NCBI GenBank assembly: GCA_020080175.1 | Contig: JAGHQL010000058.1 | Coordinates: 62,001-126,000 of the forward strand | Length of the DNA stretch: 64,000 bases | Source of the DNA: Glutinoglossum americanum | Lineage: Eukaryota; Ascomycota; Geoglossomycetes; Geoglossales; Geoglossaceae | Direction of reading: 5' to 3' | Shown: one piece after another, positions 19,513 to 63,406 of the stretch | Layout: each line of letters begins with the position of its first letter | Numbering within the stretch: position 1 is the first letter of the stretch | Notes under the pieces: model-generated | Told to the model about the DNA's origin: nothing | Seen by the model: the letters and a program-made list of their open reading frames with translations, nothing else | Databases searched by the model: none | Made by a program: the position numbers and the translations under genes

Positions 19513-20114
19513 GTCACGTGTTCAACTTCCTGTCAGGACAGGGTCAAGGCTTTTGGGCGTCTTTCCTGGCACAAGAAGAAAACAGAAATCCGTAATTCCA
19601 TCACTCGCGCTCACCTAGCTAGCGCCGCTTTAAAGGTTGAGCATGGGTGAGCTGGGGTGATGCTCACCCTGAGCTCACGCGAGCATACCAGTTCATCCTT
19701 TACATCCCGCGTCGGCACTCCAAACATAGCCCGATAGCGACAACGAAAAAGTTGATCCTGTAGACGTGGTCGAAGATCCTCAGAAACGACTTCGTGTCCC
19801 TGAGCCTTCTCTCGACTAGACCTAGGTCCCTCCCAATGATAGTGATCAGAACTGACACTTCCCTATTTTTAAAATTTGTGTCGAGCTTTATAGATTTTTG
19901 CAAGGTTGCGGCATATGGAGGTGATGAGATGTTCATTCATTGCTATATTTGTATTTTTTGTAAAAACGAAATACAGGGGCTGTCATGAACAAGAGGCTGC
20001 AGCGAGGAGTTCCCTCCTCAACAACAAATTCAAAGCAACACGAATGAGATCGTGTTTTGTATGACAGGACAGTAAGGGGTGGAGTGATATGTCTGACAGC
20101 TAGTTGCCATCGCC
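19513..20114. other. Island left flank
   Basis: No gene. It holds the left copy of the direct repeat (19574-19642) and a dense cluster of GTGAGC/GCTCAC words (about 19636-19684). Confidence 0.5.
19574..19642 (+). repeat. Left direct repeat of accessory island
   Basis: This shares two exact cores with the stretch at 24082-24146: ATCCGTAATTCCATCACT and CACCTAGCTAGCGCCGCTTT. Between and around them are a few substitutions and a short length difference. The orientation is the same. The two copies are 4.4 kb apart and enclose all the non-housekeeping genes of this region. Confidence 0.75.
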
Positions 20115-21296
20115 CTAATTGCCCTCATCGTTGCTGTCGTCTTCATCTGAAGAGGTTGCGATCTCGTCGTCCTCGCCGGTGCTAGATTCCGATTCCCCGG
20201 AGTTACGGTCGGCCGCCGTCCTTCCATACTCGTCCTCGCCGCGCTCATAACGGGCCTTGACCAGGTTGGCAAGATCAACCTCTGGGAGCTCGTTCGCGAT
20301 GCTGTCGTCAAATGTGGAGGGGATACTGAGAATCTTCGGTAGTCTTCGCCAATGGCGAACGAGATTCCAGTCCTCCTCAGATAAAAACTCCATGGTGATA
20401 GGATCGAGTTTTGTTACGTTCATACCACTGTTCGAAGGAATCTCTTTGAGATTCTTTCTCCTCCTCATCCTATTTTCGTTCGTGAGCCTAATCTCCTTCT
20501 TAACCAGGTTTACGAGCTCCTCCAGCGTGTAGTAGATATGTTCCGGGGGATCGGGCCCCAGTGCCGCGGTTGGGAAACGGTAGCGTCGCTTGTTGCGACG
20601 TGCTCTATATATCTGCATGTCGCGGGCGTAATGTCTCGCCGCCTCGGCGATGCCGGCCTTAGCTTTGAAAAGGACTTCGCGTTCTAGCTCAGTCTTCGTC
20701 TTCATCAGTTCGAAATCTACCTGCTTCGCGTGCTTGTCGTATGTGTCCACGAAACGAAACACATCCTGGTGGATGTTGGTTTCCCACCTCAATTTCACAA
20801 ATGACCCCTCTCTTCTATGGTACTTTGCACTGCGACCAGCACACTCCTCTTTAGGCGTGACGGAGTCCCTGTGGAACGCACCGGCGATGATCGAACGAGT
20901 ATGCGTCGGAGGCAACCACAATTCCGGATATGGTGGAAGAATATCTTCCCTCCACCCGTCAGAAAAGATGTCTTCATCGCTTATCGTGTTAAGCTCTGCT
21001 GCTGGCCGACGAGACATGACTCTATCAGCAGCTCTCCGATGGGTTTCGACTGAACCTGTTGCGGCTTGACGGGTCGCGGCCCCGCCGACTGATTGCTGTA
21101 TTGGCCTGCTCGGAGGTAGTTGACGAGATATGACTTTATCAGCAGCTCGCCGACGGGTTTCGACCGAACCGGTTGCGGTTTGACGGGTCACGGCCTCGTT
21201 GATTGATTGCTGTATTAGCCTGCTCGGAAAGGCGAGGGTTGGGTCAGTTAATGACTCCTGCGTAGCTTTGTACCCCGATCCTGTGTGCTGTGTCAT
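20115..21296 (-). CDS. Unrecognised protein with internal 38-residue duplication (island ORF2)
   Basis: This open frame of 393 residues starts at an ATG that overlaps the stop of the upstream ORF (ATGA). I do not recognise the family. Near the N-terminus a unit of about 38 residues is duplicated in tandem (IQQSINEAVTRQTATGSVET... then IQQSVGGAATRQAATGSVET...), each ending in RRAADKV or RRAADRV. The central part is charged and helical (KAGIAEAARHYARDMQIYRARR). The C-terminus is Ser/Asp/Glu-rich. There is no transmembrane segment, no catalytic motif I can name and no reverse transcriptase or integrase motif. It belongs to the repeat-flanked island rather than to the conserved neighbours. Confidence 0.55.
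   Translation of the reverse strand: MTQHTGSGYKATQESLTDPTLAFPSRLIQQSINEAVTRQTATGSVETRRRAADKVISRQLPPSRPIQQSVGGAATRQAATGSVETHRRAADRVMSRRPAAELNTISDEDIFSDGWREDILPPYPELWLPPTHTRSIIAGAFHRDSVTPKEECAGRSAKYHRREGSFVKLRWETNIHQDVFRFVDTYDKHAKQVDFELMKTKTELEREVLFKAKAGIAEAARHYARDMQIYRARRNKRRYRFPTAALGPDPPEHIYYTLEELVNLVKKEIRLTNENRMRRRKNLKEIPSNSGMNVTKLDPITMEFLSEEDWNLVRHWRRLPKILSIPSTFDDSIANELPEVDLANLVKARYERGEDEYGRTAADRNSGESESSTGEDDEIATSSDEDDSNDEGN
20975..21215 (-). repeat. Tandem intragenic duplication, two units
   Basis: There are two adjacent copies, each about 114-117 bases. They encode the duplicated RxIQQSxxxAxTRQxATGSVETxRRAADxVxSR units of the island ORF2. The DNA is still clearly similar between copies, which suggests a fairly recent duplication. 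Confidence 0.65.
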
Positions 21297-21676
21297 GATA
21301 GAAACCCGTTTATGGCGGTGAGCCGTTGGCTCATGTTTCCTGTTTCCGGATCTTGACTGTTTCGGTCGTGTTTCTTATTTAAAAGTAACGCATCATGAAA
21401 ATCCTTATAATTTTGGTCATTTATGTAAGCTAACTTGTGAGTTAGTGCTTGCTGCAGTGTCATGGAGCTATCGTCCATACCTTCAATCTCAGAACTACTA
21501 CTAGTTACGTCGCGAGATCCATCGCTCCTAGATCGTAGTGGGGGGGCGTTTTGGGCCGTTGCGCCGATCGTGAAGGGCGGCTGTTGTTGACTGGTGGTCG
21601 GTTCCTGACTCGATCGCCCCGTATTCAAATGAGCCCAGAGGGCCCTTAGGTGGTCGTCTTCGGAGTTCTGAGACAT
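21293..21676 (-). CDS. Unrecognised small protein (island ORF1)
   Basis: The ATG at 21676 (MSQNSEDDHLRALW) opens a frame of 127 residues ending in a TGA that overlaps the start of the next ORF. It is Ser/Gln/Thr-rich in the first half, with a helical end (LTHKLAYINDQNYKDFHDALLLNKK). I know no family. Either this and the following ORF are joined by splicing that I could not identify, or they form an overlapping pair, which is unusual for a fungal nuclear gene. The upstream region holds a minisatellite. Confidence 0.4.
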   Translation of the reverse strand: MSQNSEDDHLRALWAHLNTGRSSQEPTTSQQQPPFTIGATAQNAPPLRSRSDGSRDVTSSSSEIEGMDDSSMTLQQALTHKLAYINDQNYKDFHDALLLNKKHDRNSQDPETGNMSQRLTAINGFLS

Positions 21677-21732
21677 CGTCGAAGTGATGAAGTAACAATA
21701 AGGAAAAGTGTGATGTGACAGACGTGATAGAA

Positions 21733-21980
21733 GACGTTGGTGATATACTGAAGTAAGGGCAACAATCAGGAAAAACGTTGTGATGTACCGAAATGAAGGC
21801 AACGATCAACAAAAGCGTTGCGTGAGGTACGTGAGAGAAAAGCGTTGTGATGAGCTGAAATGAAGGCAACGATCAACAAAAGCGTTGTGATGAGCTGAAA
21901 TAAAGGCAACGATCAGTAAAAGCGTTACGTGAGGTACGTGATAGAAAAGCGTTGTAATGTACCGCAACGATCAGCAAAAA
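21733..21980 (+). repeat. Minisatellite, alternating ~40 bp and ~27 bp units
   Basis: The recurrent unit begins AAAAGCGTTGTGATG, continues with GCTGAAATGAAGGCAACGATCA, and repeats about six times with drift. The two units at 21839-21878 and 21879-21918 are nearly identical. Shorter units with GCGTGAGGTACGTGA alternate with them. The array lies just upstream of island ORF1, so it is probably in its promoter or leader. Confidence 0.8.
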
Positions 21981-22572
21981 CAAAAGGTGAGAGGTGAGAG
22001 GTGAGGTATGTGAGAGGTAGGGTAGGGGTAAAAGGTGAGAGAATGTGAGGTGGGGTGACGATAAGGAACAGCGTGATGAAAGTGAGTAGTGAGGTAAAAG
22101 TGAGAAATCACGACTTGAAGATCGTGTAGCCCTAGAGTAGTCTTGGAAGTATGGCGACCATGACGTGGACAGGGTCATGCTGGTCGGATGGAGACTATTC
22201 CTAATCGTGAAACCTCCCTTCCTTCCTAGCAAATGAGCGATTTGCTCAATCTTCAGCCATGTTGCAATGCAAAAACTAGCGTCTCCATCAATCCTAATCT
22301 CTACGCCTTCACCACTACCTCCACTCTAGCTCACTCCGTCTCTCTTGTCGGTTATGCATCACGATTGTCACAACCCCTTTTCTTACTCTTGTATACTATT
22401 TAAATAAAAGTATAGGAATAGAAACATCATCTGAAGCAATGAGCAAGGAAGATGACAAAGCGTGAAAAAATTGATTAAGAAAAGAAGAACAAAGGATGAA
22501 TATGGAAAGAGTGGAAAAAGTGATGACTATTATCTCTATAGAGAATTCGAAAAGAAATTGCTAGGAGGAGTT
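21981..22572. other. Intergenic within island
   Basis: It is purine-rich (GGTGAGAGGTGAGG-type runs) from about 21990 to 22110, and AT-rich from 22380 to 22570. A small plus-strand open frame at 22462-22647 overlaps the end of the nuclease gene and looks spurious. Confidence 0.4.
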
Positions 22573-23870
22573 TTAAGGATGATAATCTGGGTCGTTGTGA
22601 TTATCCAGCCGTGGATCTCGTTGCTTTTGATACCGATAAACGGCTAAATCCCTGATCTGTTCCTTCAAGCTTCGTTGGTAATCTTTCCAGTTAAATGTTA
22701 TATCACGATCATTCTCGGGGCCCACAGTCATAAAGTCACTTAGCCTCAACCCAAGTTGAGTTGGGTTCGTTAATGAATAGAGGTCCTGTGATGTACAAGT
22801 CAGCGTGAAACGCTCTCTTCATAGGCAATAACTTACAATGCGACCACCGTCCTGAACCGCGAGTCTAGTGGTGGCGTCGCGCTTCCAAACTTCTAGAAAG
22901 GCCGAGACCCTTCCCACCCACGCCAGTCCATCGTGGACGACAGGGCCGTATTCGTTCTTGAAGGTAAAGTGCGAGACTTTAGCCTCCGCGGCACTAGGAT
23001 AACCAAGTTCCTCAAAACCCTCGCTATCGAGACCCGGAGCTGGACTCTGATAGTTCGGGGTCTCTTTGAACTTGACAAGCAAGACGGCAGAGACATCATT
23101 TCTACCATTGATCCATAGTTCGGCATCCCGAACCAGGTCATCATATGACTCTGAAAAGCCGGCTTCGAGAATAAATTTAGGCTCAAACCCTCCTTCAGTA
23201 TTCACAAATTTCACCGCGAGATCGGGAGTCTTTTCCGAGCCACGATACCGTCCTCCAAACCCAACAAAATCCTGACCGGGAACGGCAGAAATCATTGGAC
23301 GGAGAGGGACTGGAAGTGTCGATATCGCAGCAGTGAATCCTTCTATTAAAGTGGATGTGATAGACTCATAAACAGAGGTGGGCATGAGTCGGATGGAAAG
23401 GGTCGAAATTGATGAATTGTACGAAAACCTCGGATACCTAAAATCTAGGTATTAGCAGTACCTTAAGTGATCGTGTAAGAAAGCTTAGACCTTTTGTCCG
23501 TCCCAAAAATGTTGAGATCGTGACTCAACCTAGTCCACTCTTTCAAGGATATCCTGAACCTTTTATAAGGTTCTAGCAAGCCAGGTGCAATCTTGGCTCC
23601 AGAATAGTCCTTGAAACGATCAAGATAATCGCGAACCTGATCGTATGGTGATAGAGAACCCTTCACCACTAGAAGTTGCTCTTCTCTCAGAAGAGCTATA
23701 TTCTCCGGGGAGGTTGTGTGGCGTACAGGATTGAAAGGAGCAGGGTGGAAGTGACCGTGAGTGCTATGTGAGGAGGGCGAATGGCTTTTCCGAGGGAGGT
23801 GAGGTTGTGAATGAGGTGGATAGGAGCTATACTGGTCGTAGTCGACCAGGTCTCTATTGAAGGGGATCAT
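22573..23870 (-). CDS. PD-(D/E)XK nuclease-like protein
   Basis: Exons on the minus strand: 23870-23491, 23437-22837, 22785-22573, giving 397 residues. The N-terminal 60 residues are His/Pro/Ser-rich. The core resembles a lineage-expanded group of fungal proteins with a restriction-endonuclease-like fold: a strand/helix entry (RFSYNSSISTLSIRLMPTSVYESITSTL), GGRYRGSEKTPDLAVKF with the PD pair, then FILEAGFSESYDDLVRDAELWING with the acidic residue, and VSAVLLVKFKE after it. The lysine of the classical motif is not obvious, since the third element reads EAG, as in many such fungal relatives. The C-terminal exon (SLTNPTQLGLRLSDFMTVG...) is of unknown role. Catalytic activity is unproven. The gene is the most recognisable cargo of the repeat-flanked island. 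Confidence 0.65.
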
Positions 23871-24063
23871 AATAGTTGCCCTGCACTGTGATAGTGAAGG
23901 TGACGCAGGACATAGAGAAGTTGTAATCAGATATAAAGGAAGTTTTGACCGGGTGTGGAAGGATGTAATGAGTAACGGAGGATTGTGAACCGAACGTAGA
24001 GAAAGGTTGTTATCAAGTGTTAGAGAAAGGGAGAGAGTTAGCTAATCACGACCAGTACGTGAT

Positions 24064-24094
24064 CTAACTTTTCTTCGCGCTAGAAGAAAGTTAG
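24064..24094. repeat. Short inverted repeat (hairpin)
   Basis: CTAACTTTTCTTC faces GAAGAAAGTTAG across a 6-base loop. The arms match over 12 bases with one extra T. It overlaps the left edge of the right-hand direct repeat. Confidence 0.6.
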
Positions 24095-24146
24095 AGATCC
24101 GTAATTCCATCACTTGCACCTAGCTAGCGCCGCTTTGAAGGGTGAG
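24082..24146 (+). repeat. Right direct repeat of accessory island
   Basis: This is the second copy of the stretch at 19574-19642, in the same orientation. It lies 212 bases upstream of the nuclease-like gene start and 430 bases before the YTM1 start. Confidence 0.75.
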
Positions 24147-24575
24147 CCCGGTGAGCTCGGTGAGCCTGCTTTTTGCTCGTGAACCCGCACAAGACAACTA
24201 GCCCACCAAGGAAGCTACAAGACAGCATATATCACTTCCCTCTATCAACATCATCTAACTGTTCACATCACATTACGTCGTAGCTAGATCGCGGCACCAT
24301 TGTACGGCCGCTGTAGCGTAGTCTTCACACTACCTAGTAATCCCGAAGAGGCACTTGAGACAGCACTCCTTACAAATCACCTTGGTTTGCGCACTGGCTC
24401 ACCCAGTCGCGCGAGCACAGGGCGGGATCGCTCACCCACCGAATTTGGGGTGAGCTCGCCACGGATTTTTGTTATCTTGGCAAGAAACTTTATCTCAGAG
24501 CCTCACCTGTAAACTTGACGATACATATTTTAATCCCCAAACCGAGCAAAGAATTGCCGGTTTCTACAGTCCCAA

Positions 24576-60697: not shown

Positions 60698-63406
60698 ATG
60701 GGAAACCAGTTGTCGGCGGAAAAACAAAGGAGATTAGCCAAGCCTAAGACGAACAGCTCAGCGTCAAACCCACCACCATTGTCTGCTAGCCAGACGGAAG
60801 AACCTTCAGCGCTCACAGATATGCCAGCAATGACCCTCAGCATTGGCGAAGTCGAGATGGCTGCCATTGGAGCTCCCGGTGATCGCAGGAACCTACAAGT
60901 TACGTTCCAAAAGCTTCGTGATCATGGATGGAGCTTTGGAGGTAATGAATCGATGGACACGTTCAAGGAAGAGGACACACCTGTTGGAAGCCTCGGAGCT
61001 ATTGTCTCTGGGGTGAAAGACCGAATTTCAAGGTCCGGATCCGTCAGTTCGTCGCGGATGTCGGGTGCAAGAACTTCGTTAACGCGTTTGGCCTCTCGGG
61101 GCGGATCTCCGCGACTGTCGCTCATCTCAGAGCCAGAGATCTCCAACATTGGGGAAACGGCACTGATGAGACAAGAGATTGAGGAGAATATCCGAGCCAG
61201 CGAGCTCACGGCACTCCACCATATGTCCTCACCATCTCCAACAAACGAATATAGCCCCAATGTAACCCAATGCACCCAATGTACGCCCATCAGGCGGAGA
61301 TCTCTCCTTACTCCAGGCATTGCGACGCGTGGCTGCCCAAGTAACATCCTACGAAAAGCACCGCCTCCGGAAGAGCTCCAAACCCAGGCCGATCGCGATT
61401 ATTATTTCTCATCGTTTCCAAACACCTCACATCTCACTCACCTAGAGTCTTCGGGCCTCGTGGAGGGGTGGCGATCTTCCCCAGGACCGAGAGCCTCCAC
61501 ACCTTGTGACCTGGAGGTTGGAGTCCTGGGTGGATACAAGCAGGGCACCCTGCGAATTACCAACGGTGCCGCAAGTCCCGTTCCTAGTGAAAGGACATCA
61601 CACGACTCCCTAAGAGACCCACGCTCGCCCATATCAAGGGAAGGCGAAGAGTACTTTACGGCGTCTGAGGGCGGAGGAAGCTCGGAAATCGAGCCCACAC
61701 CCGCATCAAAACAGGTTACGTCGAGACCGCTTGGGAAGATTGTCGATAGAGGTGACCCTATTCGACAAGAGAACGCCGAATTTGAGCGAATGGCGAGGTC
61801 ACTGAGAATCTCGACCACTAGCAGCCAGCAGGGGTGTAGCAGCCTATGGGGAGCTCAAAGGCTACAGGATGATATGGACTTCTGCGAAGAGCCTGCAGAG
61901 ATTTTAGAAGACCCTCTCTCACCTCCAAACCTGGCTCCGTCAGCTACGCGGAGGTGTATACAGAAGCTTCCGGATAAACCATCCCCGTCTACGGACCCCC
62001 AACTTGAAGGCCCAACTTCAGGGCCCAAATCGAGGCCCGGTACCGTCGGAGCTGGCGACCATGAAGATGAGGGTGTCGTGGTAACGCCCATCACGCGGAC
62101 ACAGAGTATCTGCGACAGTACACACCTAGTGCAGCAATGGAGATCTGGAGAGCACGCACCCAGCTGCGGTGATTGTTACACGAATACACCCCCGTCCCTT
62201 ACTGCCTCCTCATCCATCACGCCTGAGCCCTCGCCACCGTCAGAAAACCTCCGTCGCGAGTCAGCGTTTCCAAGGCCGTTGAGCAAGACCGATAGTGGAT
62301 ATGACTCACAGCGCTCAGTCAAGTCAGTGGCTAAGAAAAGCGGGGCTGCGCGACAAGATTCACATTCCTCTAACCAGAGCGAAAGTTCAGCGTCTTCGAC
62401 CAGTAATGCCATCCGCAGCTCAAGACTTTGGTTGGAGCAAGGTCTTGAAGTGACACACGAACACCCTTTTCGGAGGCGTCCAGAGACAATGCAGTCGAAA
62501 GAAATGCGGAGCATATCCCTGCCTAAAAAAACGCCGTCAGTCACCCAGCCGACCGTGCTACCTACAACGACTATAGATACAGCGGAAGCCACAGTTATTG
62601 TGATTCCGCCGCCAACGTCAAGATGGAGTAACCGAAAGAGTCTACCAGAGGGGCTACTCCGACAAGCTTCGCTCGCTCGGAGACATAGCCGCGTGTCGCC
62701 TCCTCTTCCCCGCACACCCCTATCGAACCCCGCGGTTCATAGATATCGAAGAATCAGTCAGGCGCATATTCCGCCTCAGACACCGGCAGATGCAAGCAAA
62801 CCTGCTCGACGTGGGAGCAAACACTCACATTCGGTGCCTTGCAAGCCCGTCAACACGTTTAATCCTTCAATTCCTGAGCGCCGGTCAAGTTGGCATAGTA
62901 TTCCTGGGCACAGCGGTCTCCCCACCGCCCCAGCTGATTCGCATCAAGAGGCCCGACCAACCAACTGCTTCTCAAACAGGGAAGAAGCTTTGCGGAATGC
63001 TCGTGAGAGGAGCCACCCCCAAGGCCGGGATCCAATAGTCGATGGCTACAGGGGTGTAGTTAACACTCCGGGCATTATGAGCCGATCTAATTCGATGTAT
63101 ACAAGACAACCCCTACCAATCCCAGCCCTCCAGTCAAATGAAGAGCTAGAATGGGAAAGCATTACCTCAGCGGCACAATCCCCCCTCTACAGCGCTCCTT
63201 CAGGTCAAATGCTTTCAGACAACGAAATCCCGCTGATTTCTGAGAGCCCGAAAGTGGGGAAGAAACCTGTTTTTATCGCTAGGGATAGTGGTTATGGCGA
63301 AGGAGATCAGGAGCCGTATTACAAACATAATGGTTGCGGGGCCACAATGGAGAAAAGGCCAGACAGCTGGGGCTCAAGCAAAATCTCGATATCCATTAAC
63401 TCGTAA
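60698..63406 (+). CDS. Long disordered protein with N-myristoylation-type start
   Basis: This single open frame gives 902 residues from the ATG at 60698. I do not recognise a domain. The start MGNQLSAEKQRRLAKPKTN has Gly2, a small residue pattern and Ser6 with basic residues following, the classical N-myristoylation context. Membrane association is therefore likely. A segment at about 60-100 (TLSIGEVEMAAIGAPGDRRNLQVTFQKLRDHGWSFGG) looks folded. The remainder is Ser/Pro/Arg-rich with many possible phosphorylation sites (RSGSVSSSRMSG, SLTRLASRGGSPRL, RSVKSVAKKSG). The frame is open 57 bases further upstream but without an ATG. It may be a signalling scaffold; that is a guess from composition only. 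Confidence 0.7.
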   Translation: MGNQLSAEKQRRLAKPKTNSSASNPPPLSASQTEEPSALTDMPAMTLSIGEVEMAAIGAPGDRRNLQVTFQKLRDHGWSFGGNESMDTFKEEDTPVGSLGAIVSGVKDRISRSGSVSSSRMSGARTSLTRLASRGGSPRLSLISEPEISNIGETALMRQEIEENIRASELTALHHMSSPSPTNEYSPNVTQCTQCTPIRRRSLLTPGIATRGCPSNILRKAPPPEELQTQADRDYYFSSFPNTSHLTHLESSGLVEGWRSSPGPRASTPCDLEVGVLGGYKQGTLRITNGAASPVPSERTSHDSLRDPRSPISREGEEYFTASEGGGSSEIEPTPASKQVTSRPLGKIVDRGDPIRQENAEFERMARSLRISTTSSQQGCSSLWGAQRLQDDMDFCEEPAEILEDPLSPPNLAPSATRRCIQKLPDKPSPSTDPQLEGPTSGPKSRPGTVGAGDHEDEGVVVTPITRTQSICDSTHLVQQWRSGEHAPSCGDCYTNTPPSLTASSSITPEPSPPSENLRRESAFPRPLSKTDSGYDSQRSVKSVAKKSGAARQDSHSSNQSESSASSTSNAIRSSRLWLEQGLEVTHEHPFRRRPETMQSKEMRSISLPKKTPSVTQPTVLPTTTIDTAEATVIVIPPPTSRWSNRKSLPEGLLRQASLARRHSRVSPPLPRTPLSNPAVHRYRRISQAHIPPQTPADASKPARRGSKHSHSVPCKPVNTFNPSIPERRSSWHSIPGHSGLPTAPADSHQEARPTNCFSNREEALRNARERSHPQGRDPIVDGYRGVVNTPGIMSRSNSMYTRQPLPIPALQSNEELEWESITSAAQSPLYSAPSGQMLSDNEIPLISESPKVGKKPVFIARDSGYGEGDQEPYYKHNGCGATMEKRPDSWGSSKISISINS

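Follow-up and report, generated by a model that had tools for sequence, protein, structure and literature searches.

What occupies the interval between the ZW10 and YTM1 genes of the fungus Glutinoglossum americanum, and is it mobile? We studied a window of 64,000 nucleotides (positions 62,001 to 126,000 of contig JAGHQL010000058.1, assembly GCA_020080175.1). An earlier note on this DNA had described a segment of mobile cargo, perhaps moved in trans, bracketed by two direct repeats of 65-70 base pairs (bp) between two housekeeping genes. The flanking genes are as described, with Pfam and Protein Data Bank (PDB) matches in agreement; the YTM1 protein matches PDB entries 5cyk (best, 507 bits) and 6elz (358.5 bits), which we take to be from Chaetomium and yeast, respectively. 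All our comparisons were made within this one genome of 25.77 Mb, in 317 contigs (C1, C2 and so on). They lead us to favour, with modest confidence, the view that positions 19565-24481 (4,917 bp) are a decayed non-autonomous transposon, belonging to a family whose coding members carry as their first gene a captain, the DUF3435 tyrosine recombinase of the giant fungal elements called Starships.

The two repeat copies lie in the same orientation (83% identity over 36 nucleotides and 94% over 31). Their similarity is longer than first given, spanning about 91-96 bp: 19562-19656 aligns with 24070-24160 at 80% identity, with a genome-wide E value of 2.8e-15. The core pattern, which was written from the two copies, is found at two places in the window, where 0.04 would be expected at up to two mismatches. 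The hairpin reported at the second copy is also real (-10.6 kcal/mol, z score -4.29, none of 200 shuffles as good), as is the minisatellite between the copies, with periods of 40 and 107 within 21722-21959. The genome search for further copies that the note recommended showed that both belong to a dispersed family, which forms the 5' end of recombinase-coding elements. We call this left-end family A, and its copies in the window A1 and A2. The first copy as query gave 27 matches including itself (71-91% identity between A1 and the others), and a query from a divergent copy gave 24; both searches, merged with the ends found next to captains, list 35 distinct A ends. CTTGGC stands at the edge of A exactly in 15 of 26 copies and as a one-base variant in 8, window A1 among them. 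The left-end profile was built from 24 copies with CTTGGC or a one-base variant, leaving out three motif-less copies and L028, where the motif is away from its aligned place. It shows about 0-0.3 bits per column from -30 to -2, then T and CTTGGC, and stronger conservation rightwards.

The limit of 24146 set earlier on the right proved wrong for the mobile unit, which runs to 24481 and ends in a different dispersed sequence (24376-24481), the right-end family B. Mobile cargo, perhaps moved in trans, survives as a description of the segment, but its delimitation by the two direct repeats does not. Of the 17 genome matches to 24050-24480, one is the query itself, 13 fall in its B part, and 3 in its A2 part. 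The B end carries CTTGGC exactly in 13 of 18 copies and with one mismatch in 2, and the sequences diverge beyond it. A 19-base right-end pattern, at up to two mismatches, is found 25 times in the genome, and its reversed control once. In 13 right flanks, adenine is over-represented at +6, +11, and +14 (9, 8, and 9 of 13; P = 0.002, 0.012, and 0.002) and also at +21 (8 of 13; P = 0.012), counting from the first base of the repeat over 20 positions and with uncorrected P values. This suggests a gapped target, TCTTGGC(N5)A. At L021 (C257), L026 (C106), L023 (C307), and L025 (C58), a right end, CTTGGC, and a left end are directly joined, and these four junctions look like successive insertions at one site; the two ends at the C257 junction have inverted repeats of different types. 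Elsewhere, at L024 (C114) and L027 (C99), a right end in opposite orientation lies within roughly 0.2-1.1 kb downstream of A (C114 by eye).

The link with captains comes from what follows A. Exon-level matches to the DUF3435 profile, PF11917, number 46 genome-wide. When one open reading frame (ORF) stretch of the C1 copy served as protein query, there were six matches at five loci. At four of the five loci of this C1 captain subfamily, A lies upstream on the same strand, against none of 12 other DUF3435 loci (1.5-kb flanks). The captain's first 44 residues match 14 loci, of which ten (C1, C170, C261, C201, C157, C99, C35, C190, C283, and C258) have a same-strand A end in the 0.6 kb before them and four (C120, C84, C12, and C60) have no such end. 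When 29 distinct A loci were tested directly, three of them having been found through captains, 10 had a captain start downstream; the window's two copies had none. By eye, A is followed in L003, L004, L013, and L015 by imperfect tandem repeats with a unit of about 20 bp resembling CTATCCTTCGACTCTGGC, which stand before the captain start where one is present. Also by eye, ORFs at 155-1336 of L029 (C15:75741-78833), just upstream of an A end, resemble a Tc1/mariner transposase.

The position of A upstream of captain genes, and of B upstream of YTM1, could instead mean that the repeats are promoter or regulatory elements shared by single genes, which the earlier note had named as a refutation, or that they arose by local duplication. 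We consider this very improbable. Copies are dispersed over many contigs with unlike flanks, they stop sharply at a CTTGGC motif resembling a recombination site, and they pair with a right end; local duplication leaves the other copies unexplained. A reading as long terminal repeats was dropped, given the difference between A and B and the recombinase gene that follows A.

A coding relative with both ends was found on the minus strand of C190 (161804-151331, 10,474 bp). Its order is CTTGGC, A, DUF3435 captain, further ORFs, B, and CTTGGC, and these are the only two occurrences of the motif on the element strand within 11,001 bp. The DUF3435 match scores 60.6 bits (cut-off 25.8), with 44.1 bits for one ORF stretch, and the cargo ORFs include GATA and FTA2 domain matches. 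The distance from the first base of the direct repeat to the start codon of the captain is 236 bp in C1, 306 in C99, and about 348 in C190. In the window element, A1 homology ends at 19733, 169 bp from that first base, and a fragment of a stretch that also occurs on C111 begins at 19734. Since the homology stops before the captain start of the relatives and the C111 fragment follows directly, the window element appears to be captainless, its captain region replaced by this gene fragment and other genes. Consistently with this, tblastx with the C190 and C1 captain regions (E ≤ 0.01) found no captain trace inside it, and the Pfam scan, the one search made for other transposase types, gave no match for its four ORFs. 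On C1 (28442-66297), a left end with its captain lies at 28.4 kb, and the right-end pattern recurs on the same strand at 65.5 kb and again at 66.3 kb. An element 37-38 kb long, a usual length for a Starship, may begin with this captain.

Are A1 and B the two ends of one element? Among the 35 A and 38 B ends, 11 same-strand A-to-B pairs lie within 11 kb, against 0.28 expected, and none of 20,000 simulations reaches 11. This test is generous: the 11-kb limit was set after seeing C190, contig borders were ignored, and some ends came via captains or queries from paired copies. The other A/B neighbours are four B-to-A pairs and five pairs in opposite orientation. These five, the presence of three end fragments in a stretch of 5 kb, and the many solitary copies (a B on the same strand lies at most 11 kb downstream of 10 of the 35 A ends) would fit a history in which A1, A2, and B landed independently and the genes between them are ordinary lineage-specific genes of the locus. 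We hold such separate insertions to be improbable, because pairing, orientation, and the match of inverted-repeat types are above chance, and the fit of A1 to B is equalled by just 1 of 2204 window pieces.

The inverted repeats are imperfect and lie just inside the direct repeats. Seven elements have both ends together with both direct repeats, the latter exact or changed at no more than two bases: those of the window (4,917 bp), C190 (10,474), C2 (5,848), C33 (3,316), C10 (2,751), C101 (2,746), and C35 (2,254). A copy at C35:157992-160872 was not counted, as its captain start is present but its left inverted repeat is deleted. The repeats are of three kinds: AACAGAAATCCG (window, C2, C33), ACCAAAATSCGCCC (C190), and CAAACTGCGGCG (C10, C35, C101). 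Scores of the elements' own pairs sum to 157, which is reached by 27 of 5040 permutations (8 of 720 with six elements). In six of the seven elements the inverted repeats do better than random pairs, of which at most 3 in 2000 score as high; for the window, AACAGAAATCCGT against AACAAAAATCCGT scores 21, reached by 3 of 2000. A2 has no such partner, its fit to B being equalled by 494 of 2204 window pieces, and we infer that it is an internal, extra left-end fragment. Two other roles were rejected for it: a 409-bp mini-element made of A2 and B, whose inverted repeats do not match, and the left end of a second element in tandem, since the sequence to its left is a poor right end (it scores 9 against B, and 1496 of 2204 window pieces do as well). 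That sequence pairs locally with A2 as the hairpin (12 of 2204).

Beyond their termini, the elements have little in common. Five of them (window, C190, C2, C10, and C35) were read whole and compared by blastn (E ≤ 1e-3), taking the first 450 or last 200 bases as termini. This gave 22 matches between termini, covering all ten pairs, and a single other match, between A2 and the C2 left end; tblastx adds seven short matches, of 11-38 residues, in which at least one side lies outside the termini. At E ≤ 0.01, no captain trace was found in C2, C10, C35, or C246, as in the window, nor in the 1.6 kb of C33 examined. The captainless, both-ended C2 element holds a HET-domain gene at 1143-3020 of L053. 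A flavoprotein-family gene (PF02441) lies in C246:149900-157300 (L052), with a second match of similar score on C57.

These comparisons bear on the chief alternative, namely that the window holds a derelict autonomous element, inserted whole with its captain, which was later lost by internal deletion, so that it never moved without its own captain. The copies do look old, given the divergence of A1 from the others, captain pieces with stop codons exist elsewhere in the genome, and a gene fragment abuts A1 at 19734. Yet the window, C2, C10, and C35 elements all keep both termini while having no captain trace, and their left-end homology stops at differing points; repeated clean loss of the captain in each of the four would be the less simple course of events, and we judge this alternative rather unlikely.

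If the window element is instead a non-autonomous transposon, as we favour, its movement can be outlined as follows. Both of its ends, A on the left and B on the right, bear a direct repeat of the CTTGGC type and an imperfect inverted repeat. They would be bound by a captain whose gene lies elsewhere in the genome, and which would carry out their recombination with a target like TCTTGGC(N5)A, for which the right flanks give weak evidence. As the window copy holds no captain, its movement would have needed one supplied in trans.

Several observations weigh against this reading. Movement in trans is deduced, and captain loss after insertion would leave a similar picture. The direct repeats are imperfect as a signature: the window's left one, CCTGGC, is one base off, 3 of 26 A copies have neither CTTGGC nor a one-base variant, 3 of 18 B copies are without it, and the A-B pair of C246 (about 7 kb) has no right direct repeat and was therefore excluded from the both-ended elements. 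The inverted repeats of C101 score no higher than chance (821 of 2000 random pairs as good). A likeness between A and B is also seen in direct orientation (of 300 shuffles, 1 is as good for the window, 0 for C2, 0 for C35, 4 for C10, and 34 for C190), so inverted likeness alone is not specific. Of the 12 other DUF3435 loci, C258 does have an A end with a captain start, but these lie 5.3-5.6 kb upstream, beyond the tested flank. The DUF3435 match of C190 contains three stop codons, which may be introns or decay. Finally, A2 is imperfectly explained.

The features of the element are given in the table, in the order left direct repeat, A1, gene fragment and ORFs, A2, B, and right direct repeat.

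Table. Features of the element between ZW10 and YTM1 (window positions).
Feature	Positions	Strand	Remarks
Left direct repeat CCTGGC (family form CTTGGC)	19565..19570	+	Sharp edge of A in the 24-copy profile
A1, left terminus: inverted repeat AACAGAAATCCGT and subterminal part rich in GGTGAGC/GCTCACC	19571..19733	+	26 further genome matches
Piece of a sequence shared with contig C111, directly next to A1	19734..19843	-	87% over 110 bp to C111:21303-21412; tblastx 73% over 44 residues
Cargo ORF, 393 residues, no family match	20115..21296	-	Paralogue on C130, 66% amino acid identity, one internal stop
Overlapping ORF, 169 residues, no family match; may be part of the gene of the 393-residue ORF	21293..21802	-	
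Minisatellite, periods 40 and 107	21692..22082		
Cargo ORF, 188 residues, no family match (earlier called PD-(D/E)XK-like)	22819..23385	-	Paralogue on C286, 51% amino acid identity
ORF, 135 residues, no family match	23463..23870	-	
A2, extra partial left end with altered direct repeat CTTCGC (24073-24078) and hairpin	24070..24160	+	Similar also to the left end of C2
B, right terminus	24376..24475	+	Dispersed-family matches; right-end pattern
Right direct repeat CTTGGC, end of the element	24476..24481	+	About 95 bp before the predicted YTM1 start codon

The four ORFs between ZW10 and YTM1 have no match in Pfam (E up to 0.1) or NCBIfam (E up to 1). The PD-(D/E)XK label of the 188-residue ORF could not be confirmed, since it has no family match and its AlphaFold model is unusable (predicted local distance difference test score, pLDDT, of 30.7). 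The 393-residue ORF contains a 114-bp tandem duplication (21008-21228, 87%). Neither A nor B ends were found on C130 and C286, which hold the single paralogues of two cargo ORFs.

We tentatively extend the reading to a class, although we would put this below an even chance: small (2-6 kb) captainless elements of Starship type in fungal genomes, in which one or a few host genes stand between captain-recognised ends, with end subtypes suited to different captains and adjacent insertions at the same site, and which would be moved in trans as non-autonomous satellites. Starships are found by their captain and size. An example, in the part of the article on which we draw (as with all articles cited below), is the removal of elements under 15 kb as captain indels (PMC12153272), by which captainless small relatives would be missed. 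If the class is real, giant fungal Starships have small dependants, and genes have a cheap route to mobility. The elements may show how cargo is first captured, and would also offer a natural collection of ends with which to define what a captain recognises.

How do these elements compare with known systems? Starships are described as about 20-700 kb long, all with a 5' captain, with direct repeats of 2-12 bp in 19 of 20 and inverted repeats in 18 of 20; the target of one, Nebuchadnezzar, is TTACA(N5)AAT (PMC12153272). In Sanctuary, the repeat is 6 bp long and the captain lies about 350 bp from the edge (PMC12506042). The family studied here resembles Starships such as the Hephaestus family and Sanctuary in that the captain comes first among the genes, starting 236-348 bp inside the left edge (C1, C99, and C190), and in its 6-bp direct repeats, imperfect inverted repeats, varied cargo, and putative gapped target built like TTACA(N5)AAT. 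It differs in size, the both-ended elements being 2.3-10.5 kb long, so that even that of C190 falls short of a Starship; in the lack of a captain trace in four of the five members read whole; and in its direct repeat, CTTGGC not being among the Starship repeats in the literature excerpts consulted. We recognised no captainless or non-autonomous Starship among titles and abstract openings of the open-licence literature, and the portion of PMC12289983 consulted likewise makes no mention of one; 'non-autonomous' in that of PMC12506042 refers to ToxTA, and 'nonautonomous' in that of PMC11620798 to mimps.

Cryptons also share traits with these elements: a tyrosine recombinase, short direct repeats in fungal members, small size, and non-autonomous derivatives, the latter known from an insect and medaka (PMC3212892). 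However, Cryptons have no inverted repeats and fungal ones carry GCR1_C (PMC3212892), and inverted repeats are reported as sometimes present in Starships, unlike Cryptons (PMC12134995). Here, inverted repeats are above random in six of seven both-ended elements and the recombinase domain is DUF3435; ten ORF stretches (five of C1 and five of C190, taken as stretches rather than whole gene models) have no GCR1_C Pfam match at E up to 0.1. Miniature inverted-repeat transposable elements (MITEs) and other non-autonomous DNA transposons offer a further parallel, in that defective copies share only their termini with a coding relative. Unlike MITEs, the elements described here contain genes and have direct repeats of the CTTGGC type, and the enzyme to which they are linked is a tyrosine recombinase, not a DDE transposase. 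The window element has direct repeats that differ by one base (CCTGGC/CTTGGC) and terminal inverted repeats, and the captain as first gene is found in its C190 relative. As it has no captain itself, we do not call it a Starship, but its ends and its coding relatives are of Starship type.

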